From an uncultured Flavobacteriaceae bacterium (GTDB lineage: Bacteria; Bacteroidota; Bacteroidia; Flavobacteriales; Flavobacteriaceae): 64,000 nt of DNA. Position numbers and translations under genes: made by a program. Every line of letters begins with the position of its first letter. Position 1 is the first letter of the stretch. Shown here one piece after another: positions 39,315-46,777 of this stretch. The notes below the pieces were generated by a model, which saw only the letters and a list, made by a program, of their open reading frames with translations, ran no database searches and was not told the origin of the DNA. The stretch is from positions 1 through 64,000 of the forward strand of contig CALHGE010000020.1 in assembly GCA_938029725.1 (NCBI GenBank), in the 5' to 3' direction.

Positions 39315-39877
39315 GTTCCTAGTTTGGTTTGGTAATCGAAAATCGCTATTGAGGGAAGATGTTGATTTTCAGCTTTCTAAAAATAGGTAATTATTCACAA
39401 AAAAAATGATCCACCATCGTAAATTCTCTTTTTTGATTTTTTTTTAAAAGGATTTTCCGATAAAAAAATGAAACAAGTACTACGAAAAGGCCTAAAACAG
39501 AATCCGAATAGGGTCATGGACACACTTAAACTTAAAGATAGCTATGATTGAAGCTAAGGGTCTAGCTTGTTAAAAAGTTCTTCTTAAGGCGAACCTCATT
39601 TAAACGATCTCAAAAATATGCTACCAACACTTTGTTATAATCAATTTGATCTTCTTGTAAAGGCAGGGTAATTTCATTTCTATTTTCGATGGGGTTTTAG
39701 TGGTGGTCTTTTTTATCGGTTTGGTTGTCTTATAAAATTACAGTCCGTCCGCTAAATGCTACAGTTCAGTCTTTCTTTTTTCTTTTAAAGAAGGTATCTC
39801 CTCAAATTTGTGGAACAATCAAAAACGAAAGCTAACAGATTTCTGATTTCTCGGAAATATAATTAAAAGTGGCAATT
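39315..39877. other. Divergent intergenic region, 563 bases
   Basis: Separates the hybrid kinase (minus) and the TPR-like/LytS operon (plus) and must hold both promoters. CAAATTTG at 39804-39811 is one mismatch from the plus-strand -7 consensus and lies about 65 bases before the ATG. No gene or strong hairpin is visible. Confidence 0.4.
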
Positions 39878-40501
39878 ATGAAAAAAGTAATGAGCATTTT
39901 AGTACTATTCGTATCAACGATGACTTTCGCTCAAGACCAGTTTGACAAAGGAATGCAAAAAGCATTTCAACTATGGGACGAAGGCGAAACGATAGAAGCG
40001 TCTAATATGTTCGAACGTATATCTAATGCCGAAATGGGTAATTGGCTTCCCTACTATTACGTGTCTTCAATAAACACTATCGCTTCTTTTGGAGAAAAGG
40101 ATAAAGAAAAACTAAAACAACAATTAGAGAAAGCACAAGAGTTTATCGATGTAGCAAAAGCAATAGCTCCTAATAACCCCGAAATATTAGTGCAGCAAGC
40201 CATGATTTATACCGCTTATATTGCTTTTGATGGAGCGGCTTATGGAATGACCCTTTCTGGAAAAGTAGCTGCTTTATACGCGAAAGCTGCCCAGTTGGCA
40301 CCAAACAATCCTAGAGTAGTATTCTCAAAAGCAGAATGGGATATGGGTTCAGCGGCCTACTTTGGTCAAGACACCGCACCTTATTGTAAAGATGTAGAAC
40401 GTTCACTAGAACTTTTTAATACCTTTAAGGCTGAATCAGATTTTCATCCGAATTGGGGGAAAGATAGAGCGCAAGCTACTTCTGAAAATTGTAAAAAATG
40501 A
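39878..40501 (+). CDS. Exported TPR-like helical protein
   Basis: 207 residues from the ATG at 39878 (a GTG nine bases earlier is in frame but would precede the signal peptide oddly). Signal peptide KKVMSILVLFVSTMTFAQ. The mature part is alpha-helical with repeat-like pairs of helices (FQLWDEGETIEASNMFERI, FIDVAKAIAPNNPEILVQQAMIYTAYIAF, LYAKAAQLAPNNPRVVFSKAEW), as in TPR or Sel1-like folds. Likely periplasmic. Its TGA overlaps the ATG of the LytS-type kinase by four bases (ATGA), so the two are translationally coupled, and it may be the sensor partner of that kinase. Homologues preceding LytS kinases are common in flavobacteria. Confidence 0.8.
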   Translation: MKKVMSILVLFVSTMTFAQDQFDKGMQKAFQLWDEGETIEASNMFERISNAEMGNWLPYYYVSSINTIASFGEKDKEKLKQQLEKAQEFIDVAKAIAPNNPEILVQQAMIYTAYIAFDGAAYGMTLSGKVAALYAKAAQLAPNNPRVVFSKAEWDMGSAAYFGQDTAPYCKDVERSLELFNTFKAESDFHPNWGKDRAQATSENCKK

Positions 40502-41844
40502 CAAAAGAACGTTTTTTAAAAGAGCTTTTTAGGGCTTTTATAGTAGGCACATTAATCTGGTTCGGATTTATGGCGTACTACTATTTTAACGATGTGGCGA
40601 GATTTGAAGCCATGGTAGAAAATTCTTGGGAAGAATATTATACCAATCTCATATTTTCTACAATCCTCTACATGGCAAACATGTCTTGGTTTTTGTTTCT
40701 TTTGAAAAAATGGGACCACTTTATCTACACCTTTAAACGCATGTCTATTGCTTTGCTGGGTAACGTAGTAGTAACTTGTATTGGAGTTTTTATGGCTCAA
40801 ATTATCATCTTCACTATTTTTTTTAATAAATCGATTCAATGGATTTTAGCCTCCCAATCTTTTACAGAACATTATCTGCAGGCCATATTTATAGTAATCG
40901 GGATCACTTTAGCTTTCTACGCTGTATACTATTATAGATACCGTCAAGAAAACAAGGTCAAGGAGCAAAAAATCATAGCAACTACAGCTTCTGCTAAATT
41001 CGATGCCTTAAAAAATCAATTAGACCCTCATTTTTTATTCAATAGCCTGAATGTGCTCACAAGTCTTATTGAAGAAGACCCGTATCAAGCACAGAAGTTT
41101 ACGACTTCTCTTTCGAAGGTATATCGTTATGTTTTAGAGCAAAAAAATAAAGATTTGGTCTCCGTCGATGAAGAATTGCAATTTGCAAAAACCTATGTAC
41201 GGCTTTTAAAAATGCGGTTTGAAGATAGTATTGTATTTGAAATTCCGGAAAAGAGCGAATACCCTGAGGCAAAAATAGTACCATTATCGCTGCAATTGCT
41301 TTTAGAAAACGCAGTGAAACACAATGTAGTGACGCCAGAAAAACCTCTTCATATCAAGGTTTTTGAAAAAGATGGAATGTTACATGTAACGAACAATTTA
41401 CAAGAAAAACAAGTGGTGAAAAAGAGCACCGGTGTTGGTTTACAGAACATTCAGCAGCGCTATGCTATTTTAAGTAACAAGCAGGTGCAGATAGATAAAA
41501 CGGCTGCTGAATTTAGTATTCAATTGCCGATGCTTAGTAAGCAGATTTCCAGAAAAGAAACCCAAAAAGAATACCTAGAAGATAAGCTTTACGAAAAGGC
41601 CAAAGAACGTGTTGAACACATTAAGGGCTTTTATGGAAATCTAATGTCGTATTGCATTGTGATACCCTGCCTAGCTATTCTAAATTATAATACAACAGAT
41701 TTTCCTTGGGTTTTATTTCCTGCAGGAGGCTGGGGCTTTGGGGTAATAGGACACGGTATGCAGGCCTTTGGTTACAATCCATTATGGGGTAGACGCTGGG
41801 AAGAGAGAAAGATGCGGGAGTATATGGAGGATGAAAATTTTTAA
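40498..41844 (+). CDS. LytS-type sensor kinase with C-terminal 2TM domain
   Basis: 448 residues. Four N-terminal membrane helices (about 12-32, 47-66, 82-106, 125-147), then a His_kinase domain with phosphoacceptor His178 in LKNQLDPHFLFNSLNVL, and a short HATPase with LLLENAVKHNVV and STGVGLQNIQQRYAIL. An additional C-terminal module (about 362-448) is a 2TM domain: KLYEKAKERVEHIKGFY, two membrane helices around YCIVIPCLAILNYNTTDFP and LFPAGGWGFGVIGHGM, and the end WEERKMREYMEDENF. The kinase is thus anchored on both sides of its catalytic core. Six further 2TM genes follow it, then the LytTR regulator, which is its expected substrate. Confidence 0.92.
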   Translation: MTKERFLKELFRAFIVGTLIWFGFMAYYYFNDVARFEAMVENSWEEYYTNLIFSTILYMANMSWFLFLLKKWDHFIYTFKRMSIALLGNVVVTCIGVFMAQIIIFTIFFNKSIQWILASQSFTEHYLQAIFIVIGITLAFYAVYYYRYRQENKVKEQKIIATTASAKFDALKNQLDPHFLFNSLNVLTSLIEEDPYQAQKFTTSLSKVYRYVLEQKNKDLVSVDEELQFAKTYVRLLKMRFEDSIVFEIPEKSEYPEAKIVPLSLQLLLENAVKHNVVTPEKPLHIKVFEKDGMLHVTNNLQEKQVVKKSTGVGLQNIQQRYAILSNKQVQIDKTAAEFSIQLPMLSKQISRKETQKEYLEDKLYEKAKERVEHIKGFYGNLMSYCIVIPCLAILNYNTTDFPWVLFPAGGWGFGVIGHGMQAFGYNPLWGRRWEERKMREYMEDENF

Positions 41845-41865
41845 TAGTATGGAACGAAAGCGTAC

Positions 41866-41892
41866 AGGCTTCCCTTATTGGGAGGCCTTTTT
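41866..41892 (+). terminator. Intrinsic terminator between kinase and 2TM array
   Basis: Stem GGCTTCCC/GGGAGGCC (one wobble pair) with a TTATT-type loop, followed by TTTTTGATTTT. It lies 21 bases after the kinase stop and before the first stand-alone 2TM gene, so array expression is at least partly independent of, or attenuated relative to, the kinase. Confidence 0.75.
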
Positions 41893-42049
41893 GATTTTAT
41901 AGAAATACTTAGTTTGCTAGAACACAGCTTTGTTTTGAACCTTACAATTCAGCGTCAAAAAATGACAACTCGGAAAGCTTCTTTTTCAAATATTCTACTT
42001 TCTTGAGATATTTGTAGTGTCATTAAGAAACAACTAAAAAAAACATATT

Positions 42050-42328
42050 ATGGAAAATTTAAACGATTCTAAGTATAGAAAAGCAAAAGAAAGAATAGGG
42101 GAAATCAAATCTTTTTACTCGCATGTATTTACCTATGTAATTGTAATGTCGCTTTTGGTGATTATAAATTATAACACAACAGATTTTCCTTGGGTGCTTT
42201 TTCCTGCGATCGGTTGGGGTATTGGTTTATTGAGCCATGGTTTGGGTACATTTGGGTACAACCTTATTCTGGGTAGAAATTGGGAAGAACGAAAGATTAA
42301 AGAGCTTATGGAAAGTAATGAGTTTTAA
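42050..42328 (+). CDS. 2TM-domain membrane protein 1
   Basis: 92 residues, essentially only a 2TM domain: KYRKAKERIGEIKSFY, helix 1 (about 22-40), the loop YNTTDFPWVLFPA, helix 2 (about 52-72), then NWEERKIKELMESNEF. The helix-loop-helix part is almost identical to the kinase C-terminus, at DNA level as well, so the two come from a recent duplication. Probably an inner-membrane protein with both termini in the cytoplasm. It may bind the kinase 2TM domain. There are 206 bases between kinase and this gene, with a terminator, so it likely has its own promoter. Confidence 0.88.
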   Translation: MENLNDSKYRKAKERIGEIKSFYSHVFTYVIVMSLLVIINYNTTDFPWVLFPAIGWGIGLLSHGLGTFGYNLILGRNWEERKIKELMESNEF

Positions 42329-42416
42329 GAATTCATATCTTTAAAACACAAAGAAATTTTCAAATAACCAGAACTTGAATCGGATACCGAAATCAGTTCA
42401 ATATAAAAAAACCATC

Positions 42417-42716
42417 ATGTATAACATAGAAGACGAAAAATATAGCAGAGCTAAAGATAGGGTTGTAGCGCTTAAAAAGTTTTACAACAGTTTAGCGTCA
42501 TATGCCTTTACAATTACCTTGTTAGCGAGTATAAATTATTACGTAAATGAATGGAGTTATGCTTGGTTTCTTTGGGCTGCATTTGGCTGGGGAATCGGAC
42601 TAGCTTTTAAAGCGGTAAAGCTTTTGGGAATGAATCCGTTTTTAGGAAAGAATTGGGAAGATCGCAAGATACAAGAGTTTATGAATGAAGATACTGACAC
42701 AAAACGATGGGAGTAG
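42417..42716 (+). CDS. 2TM-domain membrane protein 2
   Basis: 99 residues from the ATG at 42417; an upstream in-frame TTG would add 14 residues not shared with relatives. 2TM domain with KYSRAKDRVVALKKFYNS, two membrane helices (about 25-42 and 50-70), LLGMNPFLGKNWEDRKIQEFMNED at the end. Shares the start and end signatures with the kinase C-terminus and the other members of the array. Probably inner membrane, with cytoplasmic ends. Function unknown; a role in tuning the kinase is inferred from context. Confidence 0.85.
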   Translation: MYNIEDEKYSRAKDRVVALKKFYNSLASYAFTITLLASINYYVNEWSYAWFLWAAFGWGIGLAFKAVKLLGMNPFLGKNWEDRKIQEFMNEDTDTKRWE

Positions 42717-42751
42717 AAATTAATTTAGGTATTCTTTTGAAATACAGTTAA

Positions 42752-43114
42752 ATGAAAAGCATTATGGAAACAAATACTAGAAATAAAAAACAACGGGCCG
42801 AAGAGCGTCTCAAAGCACTAAAAGCCTTTTACACACACTTAACAATTTACCTCTTAGTAAATACTTTTATTACCCTTGTTAAGATGTACCATCATATGAA
42901 CAACGGAGCTACTATTTTTGAAGCAATCTGGAATTTTGAGACATTTGTGGTTTGGTTTTTCTGGGGTATAGGCTTAGCCGGTCACGCCGTTAAAGTGTTT
43001 TCCTTTAATCCGTTTTTTAGCAAAGATTGGGAGAAGCGACAGATCGAAAAATATATGAATGAAGAGTTAACTGAAGCTGAAAAATATAAAAAACTAGGTG
43101 ATGACAGATCATAA
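42752..43114 (+). CDS. 2TM-domain membrane protein 3
   Basis: 120 residues. The 2TM signature is present but more diverged: KQRAEERLKALKAFYTHL, a longer loop between helices (VKMYHHMNNGATIFEAIWNFET), FVVWFFWGIGLAGHAVKVFSF in helix 2, and DWEKRQIEKYMNEELTE at the end. Its last 14 bases overlap the start of the next 2TM gene, so translation of the two is coupled. Start ATG at 42752; an ATG four codons later is also possible. Confidence 0.85.
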   Translation: MKSIMETNTRNKKQRAEERLKALKAFYTHLTIYLLVNTFITLVKMYHHMNNGATIFEAIWNFETFVVWFFWGIGLAGHAVKVFSFNPFFSKDWEKRQIEKYMNEELTEAEKYKKLGDDRS

Positions 43115-43430
43115 ACAATCAAAATACGAACGCGCTCAAGAAAGGGTAGTTCAATTAAAAAAATTCTATAATCACGCGGTGGTATTTGTAATCATTAATA
43201 CCTTACTTATTCTTTTTAGAAATCACTTTAGAGTAACGCTTATTAGCGAAGAAGCTTTCGGAAGCCCTGATTTTTTAAAGTGGATAGATTGGAATGTATT
43301 TGGTACCACAATAGTATGGGGCATTATTCTAGCTTTTCACGCCTTAAAGGTGTTTGGCAATATACAGGTGTTGGGTAAGAATTGGGAGGAGCGAAAGCTG
43401 CAAGAGTTCATGAATGAAGACGAAGAATAA
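43101..43430 (+). CDS. 2TM-domain membrane protein 4
   Basis: 109 residues from the ATG at 43101 (a GTG directly before it is in frame). 2TM domain with KYERAQERVVQLKKFYNHA, two helices (about 20-35 and 68-88) separated by a long loop that contains RVTLISEEAFGSPDFLKW, and KNWEERKLQEFMNEDEE at the end. It overlaps the previous gene by 14 bases. The length of the inter-helix loop varies among the members, which could tune the sensing surface on the periplasmic side. Confidence 0.85.
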   Translation: MTDHKQSKYERAQERVVQLKKFYNHAVVFVIINTLLILFRNHFRVTLISEEAFGSPDFLKWIDWNVFGTTIVWGIILAFHALKVFGNIQVLGKNWEERKLQEFMNEDEE

Positions 43431-43470
43431 AGTAGGAACTAACACAGAAGGGTTTTAAACGACAAATGTG

Positions 43471-43735
43471 ATGCTAAATCCAATAGAGCATAGGGAGCGC
43501 GCTAAAAAAACGTATTAATGCTATGGAATATTAGTATGGGTTGCTACCCTTGTATAGTGCAGCCACTGCCATGATAGTTTTACTGTCAGGCCCCATAGTA
43601 TGCTGGGCTTTCTTTTTTGTTCAAGGGATGAATTTATTCCTCCAAAAAACGAATCTCATCAACAGCCGGGAAGAACGGCAATTTCGAAAGTATATGGAAA
43701 AGGGTAAAAAATCAGAAGTAAAAATTACATACTAA
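43471..43735 (+). pseudogene. Decayed 2TM-domain gene
   Basis: Starts ATG at 43471 with NPIEHRERAKK, then an A7 run (43504-43510) where removal of one A would continue the frame as RINAMEY, followed by an in-frame TAG at 43532-43534. The remainder reads YGLLPLYSAATAMIVLLSG, a second helix, and REERQFRKYMEKGKK, which matches the conserved 2TM end. The first helix region is shortened. So it carries a frameshift, a stop and a deletion. The 3' part remains open and its TAA overlaps the ATG of the next gene by one base (TAATG), which shows that the gene once sat tightly in the operon. Confidence 0.8.
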
Positions 43736-44085
43736 TGGAAGAGCGCGAGCAGCAATCAGAAAAATATATCAAAGCCCAAATGAGGGTGAAGCAGATAAAA
43801 CAATTTTATAGACACTTAAAAGTATATCTAGTGGTCAATATTCTATTTTTTGTCGCTAAATTTAGGTTCATTGCTTTTTTTAATGAACAGGGTATTCAAG
43901 ATGAAGGCTTTTATTCATGGATAGCATGGAATGCTATTTTATGGGGTATTGGCTTATTTGTGCAGTGGGTCTATGTTTTTAAATGGCAAAAACTCAAGCC
44001 TATTGTAATGAAAGATTGGGAGGCCAAACAAATGACCAAATTTTTAGAGGAAGAATATCAAAGAAACGCCACTAATAAAAAATAG
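43735..44085 (+). CDS. 2TM-domain membrane protein 5
   Basis: 116 residues. 2TM domain with KYIKAQMRVKQIKQFYRHL, two membrane helices (about 30-50 and 68-88) and KDWEAKQMTKFLEEEYQ at the end; it is the most diverged intact member. Its ATG overlaps the stop of the decayed copy by one base. The LytTR regulator gene follows 26 bases downstream, so this protein is probably cotranscribed with the regulator. Confidence 0.82.
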   Translation: MEEREQQSEKYIKAQMRVKQIKQFYRHLKVYLVVNILFFVAKFRFIAFFNEQGIQDEGFYSWIAWNAILWGIGLFVQWVYVFKWQKLKPIVMKDWEAKQMTKFLEEEYQRNATNKK

Positions 44086-44111
44086 ATTTTGATAAGAATA
44101 ATACGAAAAGT

Positions 44112-44867
44112 ATGAACGTAATTATAATAGAAGACGAGAAACCTGCAGCAAGAAGATTATCAAGGCTTTTAGCTGAACTTAATGTGGAGATCTCAACGAT
44201 GCTGCATTCCGTTGAGGAGGCTATCGATTGGTTTCAAAATAACAAACATCCTGATTTGATTTTTCTAGATATTCAACTTTCTGACGGACTCTCTTTTGAG
44301 ATTTTTGAAGAAGTAGAAGTGCGTAGTGCTATCATTTTTACTACGGCCTATGATGAATATGCCTTGCAAGCTTTTAAATTAAACAGCATCGATTATCTTT
44401 TGAAACCGATAGATGATGAGGACCTGGAGGCAGCTGTTAAAAAATATCGATTGCTAAAACCCGAGCCTCAAAAACTTGCTTTAGATTTTGAAGACATCAA
44501 AAAATTATTGGTCAATCCGATAGAGCGGGAATACAAAAAACGATTTACGGTCAAGGTAGGGCAGCACCTTAAAATTATAAATGCAGATGAGGTGGAATGT
44601 TTTTATAGTGAAAACAAAGGTACATATGCTGCTACTTCTGATGGACGAAATTATTTATTAGACACCACTTTAGAGAATTTGGAAACAGAATTAGAGCCTA
44701 AAATTTTCTTTAGGGTGAGTCGAAAATTCTATATCAATATTAACCATATCAAAGACATCATTTCATATACAAATTCACGCCTTCAAATTAAGGTTAATCA
44801 TTATTCTGAGCAAGAAATAATTGTAAGTAGAGAAAAAGTAAGAGACTTCAAGTTATGGTTAGAGTAG
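44112..44867 (+). CDS. LytTR response regulator of the LytS-type kinase
   Basis: 251 residues. Receiver (about 1-115) with IIIEDEKPAARRL, phosphoacceptor Asp53 in DLIFLDIQLSDG, Thr in IIFTTAYDEYALQAF and the Lys of YLLKPIDDEDL, which is the LytT/AlgR type. The LytTR DNA-binding domain (about 145-251) includes RFTVKVGQHLKIINADEVECFYSENKGTYA, RKFYININHI and IIVSREKVRDFKLWL. In flavobacteria this regulator type is the usual partner of LytS-like kinases. It closes the 2TM array, 26 bases after its last member; possible targets include the array itself. Confidence 0.93.
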   Translation: MNVIIIEDEKPAARRLSRLLAELNVEISTMLHSVEEAIDWFQNNKHPDLIFLDIQLSDGLSFEIFEEVEVRSAIIFTTAYDEYALQAFKLNSIDYLLKPIDDEDLEAAVKKYRLLKPEPQKLALDFEDIKKLLVNPIEREYKKRFTVKVGQHLKIINADEVECFYSENKGTYAATSDGRNYLLDTTLENLETELEPKIFFRVSRKFYININHIKDIISYTNSRLQIKVNHYSEQEIIVSREKVRDFKLWLE

Positions 44868-45592: not shown

Positions 45593-46777
45593 CTATTTTA
45601 CGCGATTATCATCAAAAGATGAAGGCAATAATTTAGGAATCAATTTGATGAAAATAGGAAGTAAAACGGCCCCGCCAGGTAGAATGAAAATGGCCAGAGA
45701 TGGAATCGTTTTAAAAATATCAATAAGTTGATTTTGTACTTTTTTCTTTTCTTCGCTACTTAAGTCTTGAACAGTTGATTTTGATATAAGGCTAACTAGC
45801 TCTTTGCTTTCCAGAAGCTCTTTTTGTAGGCGTTTGCTATTTCGTAAGATAAGCTTGTTTACAATTTTCAACATGCTATCATAGAACTGTACCGCAAGGT
45901 TCTTATCTTTAAGAAAAGGAATTATTTCTGCATTTCGGTCAAAGAAGGCGGCGATCTCTTCAAGAGAACGGGTAATTTGTTTTTGATCAAAACCTAAATC
46001 TTTACCGATGCCGAAAATAAACTCCGATTCTTGATATTCTAAAGATTGGTCTTCCCAAACAGTTAAACAGGCCATATCTAAGAAGTACTGATTTTCCCAA
46101 GGAGAAAAATTATTCAATAATTTTTCACGATATGAACCATCAAAATGTTCTTTCTCTGTATCAATAAAAGTTAGAGAAGCTTCAAACAACTGCGCTAAGC
46201 GTTCATCGTTTTTATTCTTTTCTCTTGAGCTTAAGGCATGATAGGTAATGTTAATTGCTATATATTCTAAATTTTGAGCGTAGTCGCGAATGCCTTCTGG
46301 TTGCTGTAAATAGCGCTTAAATGTAAGCACATCAATAAACAATAATGAATTTGTAATTATACTATTAAAGGTCTTGCTGATAAGGTTATCTGCCAAGTAT
46401 ACTCTAGAATCAATCAGCTTTTCAAGCTGTGATGAGGTTTTGCTACCTGTTAGAATTTTATTAAAAAAAGAAATATCGCCTAGGTTAAGGTCCTTGTAGA
46501 ATTGAAAAATCTTCTCTAAGAAAACAGTGAAATTGGTAGTGTTCTGTTGAAGAGCGTAAGTTTTGTATAGCGCTGAAAGCAAATTGATTTTTGCTTTCTC
46601 GTCTTCGGAAAGCGTGTGTGCTGTCTCTATAGCTCTAGATACCTTTATATTTACGCCATAAACGAACCCAGTTTTCTTTAATTCGCTATAAATTTTTTGA
46701 AAGTCTTCAGAAGTCCCCGTATCGTTACTTACGGATGCTCCAAATTTATTAATCCAGCCTGATGCCGATGGGTTCAT
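45593..46777 (-). CDS. LETM1-related protein
   Basis: 394 residues of the LETM1-related family found in Bacteroidota (annotated elsewhere as LETM1-related biofilm-associated). A helical N-terminal 300 residues, including SGWINKFGASVSNDTG and a middle DMACLTVWEDQSLEYQESEFIFGIGKDLGF, leads to the LETM1-like end: QNQLIDIFKTIPSLAIFILPGGAVLLPIFIKLIPKLLPSSF. In mitochondria LETM1 proteins affect cation exchange and translation, but the bacterial branch has no proven mechanism. A CAAAAATA on the plus strand at 46799-46806 (TATTTTTG on the gene strand) is a plausible -7 box, 21 bases before the ATG. Confidence 0.85.
   Translation of the reverse strand: MNPSASGWINKFGASVSNDTGTSEDFQKIYSELKKTGFVYGVNIKVSRAIETAHTLSEDEKAKINLLSALYKTYALQQNTTNFTVFLEKIFQFYKDLNLGDISFFNKILTGSKTSSQLEKLIDSRVYLADNLISKTFNSIITNSLLFIDVLTFKRYLQQPEGIRDYAQNLEYIAINITYHALSSREKNKNDERLAQLFEASLTFIDTEKEHFDGSYREKLLNNFSPWENQYFLDMACLTVWEDQSLEYQESEFIFGIGKDLGFDQKQITRSLEEIAAFFDRNAEIIPFLKDKNLAVQFYDSMLKIVNKLILRNSKRLQKELLESKELVSLISKSTVQDLSSEEKKKVQNQLIDIFKTIPSLAIFILPGGAVLLPIFIKLIPKLLPSSFDDNRVK

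Follow-up and report, generated by a model that had tools for sequence, protein, structure and literature searches.

The 64,000-nucleotide stretch of DNA analysed here (the window; positions 1 to 64,000, forward strand, of contig CALHGE010000020.1 in assembly GCA_938029725.1, from an uncultured marine Flavobacteriaceae bacterium) carries a LytS-type histidine kinase with a C-terminal 2TM domain (PF13239), an array of genes for stand-alone 2TM proteins (solos; five intact, A to E, and one decayed), and a LytTR-type response regulator. Judging from sequence comparison, we think it reasonably probable that the set constitutes an autoregulated LytS/LytTR system, in which the solos would be position-specific accessory subunits of the membrane module of the kinase, made on activation as feedback. 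A functional tie between the solos and the kinase is indirectly supported by the conservation of the gene set, one natural fusion, a trans-arranged 2TM protein beside a 2TM-less kinase in the family labelled f7, and the shared LytTR-type operators.

Kinase, regulator and 2TM paralogues

Open reading frames and Pfam matches agree with an earlier reading of the letters made without database searches (the sequence-only reading) in the coordinates and gene set of the kinase, the five intact solos and the decayed gene, and in the regulator that closes the set, which contains a receiver (PF00072, 57.2 bits) and a LytTR domain (PF04397, 72.4 bits). The kinase has a His_kinase domain (PF06580, 89.6 bits; cut-off, 25.2) and a weak HATPase_c_5 match (13.8 bits, below the cut-off of 22), with N- and G-box-like residues, as read by eye, invariant across 15 kinases; its core matches PDB entry 6swj. 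PF13239 is present in the kinase (91.9 bits) and in all five intact solos (63.2 to 102 bits; E-values, 1.8e-29 to 2.4e-17), far above the curated cut-off of 24.8, and the small genes had been rightly associated with the kinase module. The 2TM domain is the sole Pfam match above cut-off in the solos, and a PDB search gave no relative of a solo at E ≤1. Of the two sequence patterns said to be shared by these domains, the end pattern is present in all six intact domains (by eye) and the start pattern in five of the six, the third solo (protein C) having K instead of Y at position one. The strong variation claimed for the loop between the helices is borne out for length, in that the 2TM domain of the last solo (median, 99.5 residues in 72 loci) is longer than that of the kinase (87 residues, 80 loci) or the first solo (89 residues, 80 loci). 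The 64-residue frame left in the decayed gene has no Pfam match and is assigned as a 2TM remnant because it is recognised by a 2TM profile derived from the array sequences and related ones. The own genome encodes three LytS-type kinases, of which only this one carries a 2TM domain.

The 2TM domain was surveyed in 80 genomes of the window's family, 118 of its phylum and 296 of its class, and matches were found in 73, 25 and 67 of them, respectively; the kinase with a 2TM domain (kinase-2TM) is present in at least 59 of the 80 family genomes drawn. The comparison of copy number in related genomes, which the sequence-only reading had called for, was made on a first set of 80 loci (79 fetched kinase-2TM loci among the matches listed, and the window; G088 excluded). 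Between one and six solos (≥75 residues) are found in 79 of these loci (one solo in 19 loci, two in 25, three in 17, four in 10, five in 3 and six in 5), the single locus with none being on a truncated contig. A related LytTR regulator lies inside the fetched stretch in 74 of the 80 loci, and the upstream neighbours include a TPR-like gene in at least 60, a DUF2141-like gene in at least 24 and a TonB-receptor-like gene in at least 23, the latter two mostly further upstream; these neighbour counts are lower bounds, since the fetched stretches are short. A second scan covered named loci, the best 80 of 587 kinase relatives, spanning Maribacter, Arenibacter, Flagellimonas, Robiginitalea, Lacinutrix, Flavobacterium and other genera; its query included the 2TM domain and it is biased to kinase-2TM accordingly. 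Each of these 80 best-scoring loci combines a kinase-2TM with one solo or more; a LytTR match lies downstream in 78 of them and is at least 240 residues long in 74.

The 2TM domain is found on the kinase in cis, doubled on the kinase, and beside it in trans. In one locus (L051), the kinase is followed by two tandem 2TM domains in a single frame (kinase-2TM-2TM). This is the sole full-length fusion match among the matches listed from 299 genomes, in which a diverged fusion could appear as two matches; a congener has a kinase of normal length. In family f7, a 2TM match occurs in 10 of 61 genomes. Seven loci of f7 show the order of a 2TM gene, a 2TM-less kinase (344–393 residues from stop to stop; Pfam on one kinase) and a regulator, with a TPR-like gene directly before the 2TM gene in five of the seven, and a TonB-receptor-like gene before that in two. 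The remainder comprises an eighth locus on a short contig and two weak 2TM matches without a kinase.

The sequence-only reading had further proposed that the solos are a family of interchangeable partners of the kinase, which is not supported by a tree built from 305 2TM domains. Only 9 of these domains have their nearest relative within their own locus. The position labels require 54 changes on the tree, where 300 shuffles within loci averaged 89.6 (minimum, 78); the kinase/solo label requires 10 changes, as against an average of 69.5 (minimum, 59) over 300 such shuffles. The tree is built on 88 columns, its single branches are weak, and total change counts were the only measure used. A kinase domain is among the six nearest tree neighbours of solo A, the solo most similar to the 2TM domain of the window's own kinase. 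Position labels were used in place of paralogue classes from iterated profiles, which were dropped because they drifted, class A absorbing kinases of other genera. Recent tandem expansion was also rejected, as the nearest relatives sit in other loci. Because position is kept across genera, the paralogues look old and specialised, and not freely interchangeable. In comparison with two relatives, the nonsynonymous divergence (dN) of the solos is 0.15–0.44, with a synonymous divergence (dS) of 1.0–1.7 or saturated, and the dN of the regulator is 0.05–0.06. The array members thus seem to be paralogues of long standing, each specific to its position; their evolution is faster than that of the regulator and still looks constrained. 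A neutral or nearly neutral array, consisting of tandem duplicates that persist by chance and decay, could be suspected from the one remnant and from the copy number of 1 to 6 between loci; it is made very improbable by the orthology of positions across genera, by the above dN and dS values, and by the array's own operator, which is present in 45 of 81 loci and goes with more copies (mean of 3.93 solos with the operator, and 2.47 in the 36 loci lacking it, kinship being ignored).

LytTR-type operators and the genes behind them

A direct repeat is present in the gap between the kinase and the array, and its strict form was defined as CARYTCR-N14-CARYTCR, with a period of 21 bp. Strict sites occur in 43 of 54 kinase-array gaps (≥60 bp), 51 of 81 operon-upstream stretches and 11 of 81 kinase genes; none was found in 79 regulator genes, in 79 stretches 3′ of the regulator, or on the other strand of the gaps. 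Other periods (17–20 and 22–26) gave 0 to 3 sites, and 0 or 1 within the gaps. With a position weight matrix (PWM) trained on 92 sites excluding the window, the two window operators score 36.4 (operator 1, one mismatch to the strict pattern) and 34.9 (operator 2, no mismatch), and the third best site in the 64 kb scores 2.0. In 81 loci (1.18 Mb), 138 sites have a PWM score ≥22, a count that is not independent because 80 of these loci supplied the training sites. Of these sites, 136 precede genes for 2TM proteins (48), TPR proteins (36), TonB receptors (18), kinases (17), DUF2141 proteins (16) or a DUF2141-TPR frame (1), leaving two others; no site at this threshold precedes a regulator gene in the 81 loci, in which the reversed matrix gave no site at all. 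A site was also detected in 71 of 72 fetched loci that do not overlap the named loci and are related to the training set, and, at a threshold of 18 with the same matrix, in six of eight f7 loci. A TTTG box is placed at exactly +66 in 124 of the 138 sites, which would fit an activator bound upstream of a fixed promoter. LytTR operators are described in parts of PMC6193735 as 9-bp direct repeats with a 12-bp spacer. Because LytTR-type operators lie 5′ of both the operon and the array, together with the conserved TTTG box, the array appears to be an autoregulated output of its own regulator.

The same features recall the LRS type of LytTR system (HdrRM and BrsRM), which, in the portions of PMC6193735 that describe it, is an autoregulated operon with membrane proteins and has repeats of the same length and spacing just 5′ of the promoter. 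There, the membrane inhibitor holds the LytTR regulator, outside two-component systems. We consider it quite improbable that the solos likewise hold the regulator at the membrane, since a receiver domain and an adjacent kinase are present here, and since the solos, in which Pfam finds nothing besides 2TM above cut-off, resemble the domain of the kinase.

The regulon may extend beyond the locus. In the own genome, the strict pattern with at most one mismatch gave 75 matches (reversed control, 19), of which the six best score 22.8–30.5 on the 28-base core, the next being at 17.9. Two of the six are the operators of the window; another two form a divergent pair on contig C13, with a TonB receptor gene and a DUF2141 gene behind them, and C22 and C36 contribute one site each, which precedes a micro-ORF cluster or lies inside it. 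The operator-bearing TonB receptor and DUF2141 genes, located on another contig in the own genome, are at the kinase locus in 26 and 20 of 81 loci, respectively. A perfect operator match was found in 38 of 40 family genomes, with 0–3 matches in the reversed control except in two genomes with 66 and 20. Among 20 further hand-picked places, a site ≥18 is present in 19, with TTTG at +66 in 13 of 21 sites; the genes after these sites encode TonB receptors (5; by profile), DUF2807-like proteins (5; Pfam on 2), DUF2141 proteins (2; by profile), DUF4440-like proteins (2; Pfam on 1, below cut-off), a beta-lactamase-family protein (1) and others.

The micro-ORFs are of two kinds. On C22 (G000:C22:48854-49526; L212 and L251), an operator (PWM, 31.4) is followed by four micro-ORFs of 37, 28, 28 and 34 residues, with a similar leader before most ATGs; a terminator-like hairpin closes the cluster. 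The 28-residue type ends in WN-x-x-RR[YF] and is found in five other genomes of the genus (L252–L256), in tandem in some, with an operator within the stretch read in L252 only; no Pfam or NCBIfam match was obtained for the C22-type micro-ORFs scanned. The second family, on C36 (G000:C36:2019-2544; L247 and L324), consists of 37-residue micro-proteins of the type MKAS-x-x-RTATESKTGQYF...SKRAQWAQYRNFNR, often in tandem, with further members in L123, L257, L259 and L317–L328; the family was found in 12 of 100 family genomes, with identity down to ~40%; a LytTR-type operator accompanies some of its clusters, not most. A site ≥12 within 400 bp before the first copy was found in two of 10 copy-bearing loci (12 scanned). 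One of the 138 sites, outside the assigned gene classes, precedes four identical micro-ORFs.

The genes behind these operators bear on a different role of the solos, namely as an output that protects or remodels the envelope at the inner membrane (cf. PspB/PspC and LiaI), sharing only descent with the domain of the kinase. We regard this as unlikely, yet deserving serious consideration. The solos sit behind the likely operator of the regulator and are more diverged than the regulator, and the same operator precedes the above DUF2807 proteins elsewhere in the family; DUF2807 is placed in ‘Toastrack’ in sections of PMC11237479, which relate it to membrane stress and to two-component systems and note LytTR in some operons of Firmicutes. 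The kinase-2TM-2TM fusion and the trans 2TM beside a 2TM-less kinase, on the other hand, tie the domain to the kinase, and an output role is compatible with a partner role.

Layout of the locus and its surroundings

The features of the locus are listed in the table below. Those added to the sequence-only reading are the TPR-like gene, the two operators and the terminator-like hairpin between the kinase and the array. The 3′ end of the TPR-like gene and the 5′ end of the kinase gene overlap by 4 bp, and residues 1–19 of the TPR-like protein are hydrophobic. The scan of a 6-kb region found three terminator-like hairpins, as compared with 3.9 expected from shuffles, and a terminator-like hairpin lies in the kinase-array gap in two of 28 long gaps, those of the window and of L114; a general terminator between the kinase and the array was hence rejected, and the hairpin is clade-specific at best. 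Rfam gave no match in the three loci scanned.

Table. Features of the kinase-2TM locus in the window, with their coordinates and the evidence for each
Feature	Coordinates	Strand	Evidence and remarks
LytTR-type operator 1	39741..39768	+	two 9-bp direct repeats, 12-bp spacer; 5′ of the TPR-kinase unit
TTTG box of operator 1	39807-39810	+	sequence read
TPR-like gene	39869..40501	+	ORF; weak TPR matches below Pfam cut-off; apparent signal peptide
LytS-type histidine kinase with C-terminal 2TM	40498..41844	+	PF06580 E 1.6e-25; PF13239 E 2.6e-26
2TM domain of the kinase	41593-41829 (residues 366-444)	+	Pfam
Terminator-like hairpin with T tail, between kinase and array	41866..41888	+	hairpin scan
LytTR-type operator 2	41945..41972	+	strict pattern and PWM; 5′ of the 2TM array
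TTTG box of operator 2	42011-42014	+	sequence read
Solo 2TM protein A (92 residues)	42050..42328	+	PF13239 E 1.8e-29
Solo 2TM protein B	42417..42716	+	PF13239 E 1e-24; reading frame extends 5′ to TTG 42375
Solo 2TM protein C, longer loop	42764..43114	+	PF13239 E 4.3e-24; reading frame extends 5′ to ATG 42752
Solo 2TM protein D, overlaps C	43101..43430	+	PF13239 E 1.8e-21; reading frame extends 5′ to GTG 43098
2TM gene remnant	43431..43734	+	64-residue frame 43541-43735 left; matches array-built 2TM profile
Solo 2TM protein E, lowest-scoring intact copy	43735..44085	+	PF13239 E 2.4e-17
LytTR-type response regulator	44112..44867	+	PF04397 E 3.6e-20; PF00072 E 2.3e-15

Convergent to the regulator is a gene for a LETM1-related biofilm-associated protein (window 45593-46777, minus strand; NF040639, 526 bits), related genes being found in 44 of 80 kinase loci. 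The LETM1-like and DUF4331-like neighbours were not counted as regulon members, having no upstream site in 66 and 30 loci, respectively. The cluster holds six of the seven 2TM matches in the own genome (3.8 Mb). The seventh (G000:C49:24924-25163; L087) is stand-alone and located directly before a dihydrofolate reductase-like gene (by eye); in L094 and L095, Pfam finds 2TM and dihydrofolate reductase fused in one protein, with 2TM on the N-terminal side, and similarly sized genes follow 2TM in L088–L090, L092, L093, L096 and L206. A membrane-tied dihydrofolate reductase is an odd arrangement. In another genome (G018:C8; L316:10530-11341), the operator, DUF2141 gene and a short TPR piece are kept, with no kinase, 2TM gene or regulator seen in 34 kb, and the system may have been lost.

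Possible mechanism and relation to known systems

In the mechanism that we favour, the kinase carries one C-terminal 2TM hairpin, and the array would supply further, position-specific versions of it in trans. The active kinase would phosphorylate the LytTR regulator, which would then bind the 9-bp repeats before the TPR-kinase and array-regulator units and activate both. The newly made 2TM proteins may pack with the hairpin of the kinase or displace the partner of that hairpin within the dimer, thereby resetting the activity, most likely as a damping feedback. Since the putative ATPase domain sits between two membrane parts, a different partner at the C-terminal hairpin could shift this domain with respect to the dimerisation helices. 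The regulator would also drive the TonB-dependent receptor, the DUF2141 protein and some of the micro-ORF clusters, before which operators of this type are seen. It is possible, and no better than tentative, that the membrane domain of the kinase is exchangeable: activation of the regulator would yield graded, position-specific 2TM subunits that swap into or against the kinase hairpin, the sensor being rebuilt while signalling, and the regulator would also drive the clusters of ~27–38-residue micro-proteins.

Several points weigh against the accessory-subunit mechanism. The solos could act on the envelope and not on the kinase, which is its main rival, although both may be true. The sign of the feedback is taken solely from analogy. 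In the correlation of distance matrices, corrected for the kinase core and the regulator, the 2TM domain of the kinase gives r = 0.40 with the first solo, a value confounded by paralogue class, and 0.04 with the last solo. Only two of the six f7 sites have TTTG at +66, and related species are not independent, by which the counts overstate the independent evidence.

With LytS/LytTR systems of the LytSR, AgrCA and BtsSR type, the present system shares the PF06580 kinase, the receiver-LytTR regulator and the 9-bp repeats with a 12-bp spacer; it differs in the C-terminal 2TM domain of the kinase and in the array of stand-alone 2TM paralogues behind an operator. LiaFSR/PSP systems, as covered in sections of PMC11237479, are similar in having small membrane proteins beside a two-component system, and LiaF is depicted there as an inhibitory feedback acting on LiaS; in some genera, the same operator as here also precedes DUF2807 (Toastrack). 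In contrast to those systems, the operon proteins here belong to other families, and the regulator is LytTR, not REC-wHTH. None of PspA/LiaH, LiaF and PspC was found above the Pfam cut-off in the nine window proteins scanned, the sole PSP name being PspB on the TPR-like protein (13.0 bits; cut-off, 25.6). A LytTR/kinase pair of F. johnsoniae with parallel mutations, reported in a part of PMC10197871, was set aside as probably another system because its adjacent locus tags leave no room for solos.

Searches of the open PMC literature found no paper naming PF13239 and none on this system. Altogether, we conclude that the locus represents a real and widespread variant of LytS/LytTR signalling, undescribed as far as these searches show. 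Kinases with accessory membrane proteins are known; here, the accessory parts would be paralogues of the kinase's own domain, and they occur as conserved groups of one to six, preceded by a likely operator of the regulator that partners the kinase. The system offers an experimentally tractable case of sensor subunit exchange or feedback, gives a testable function for Pfam 2TM, for which none was described in the open PMC literature found, and comes with a catalogue of operators and genes of a LytTR system that no fewer than 59 of the 80 Flavobacteriaceae genomes drawn contain.

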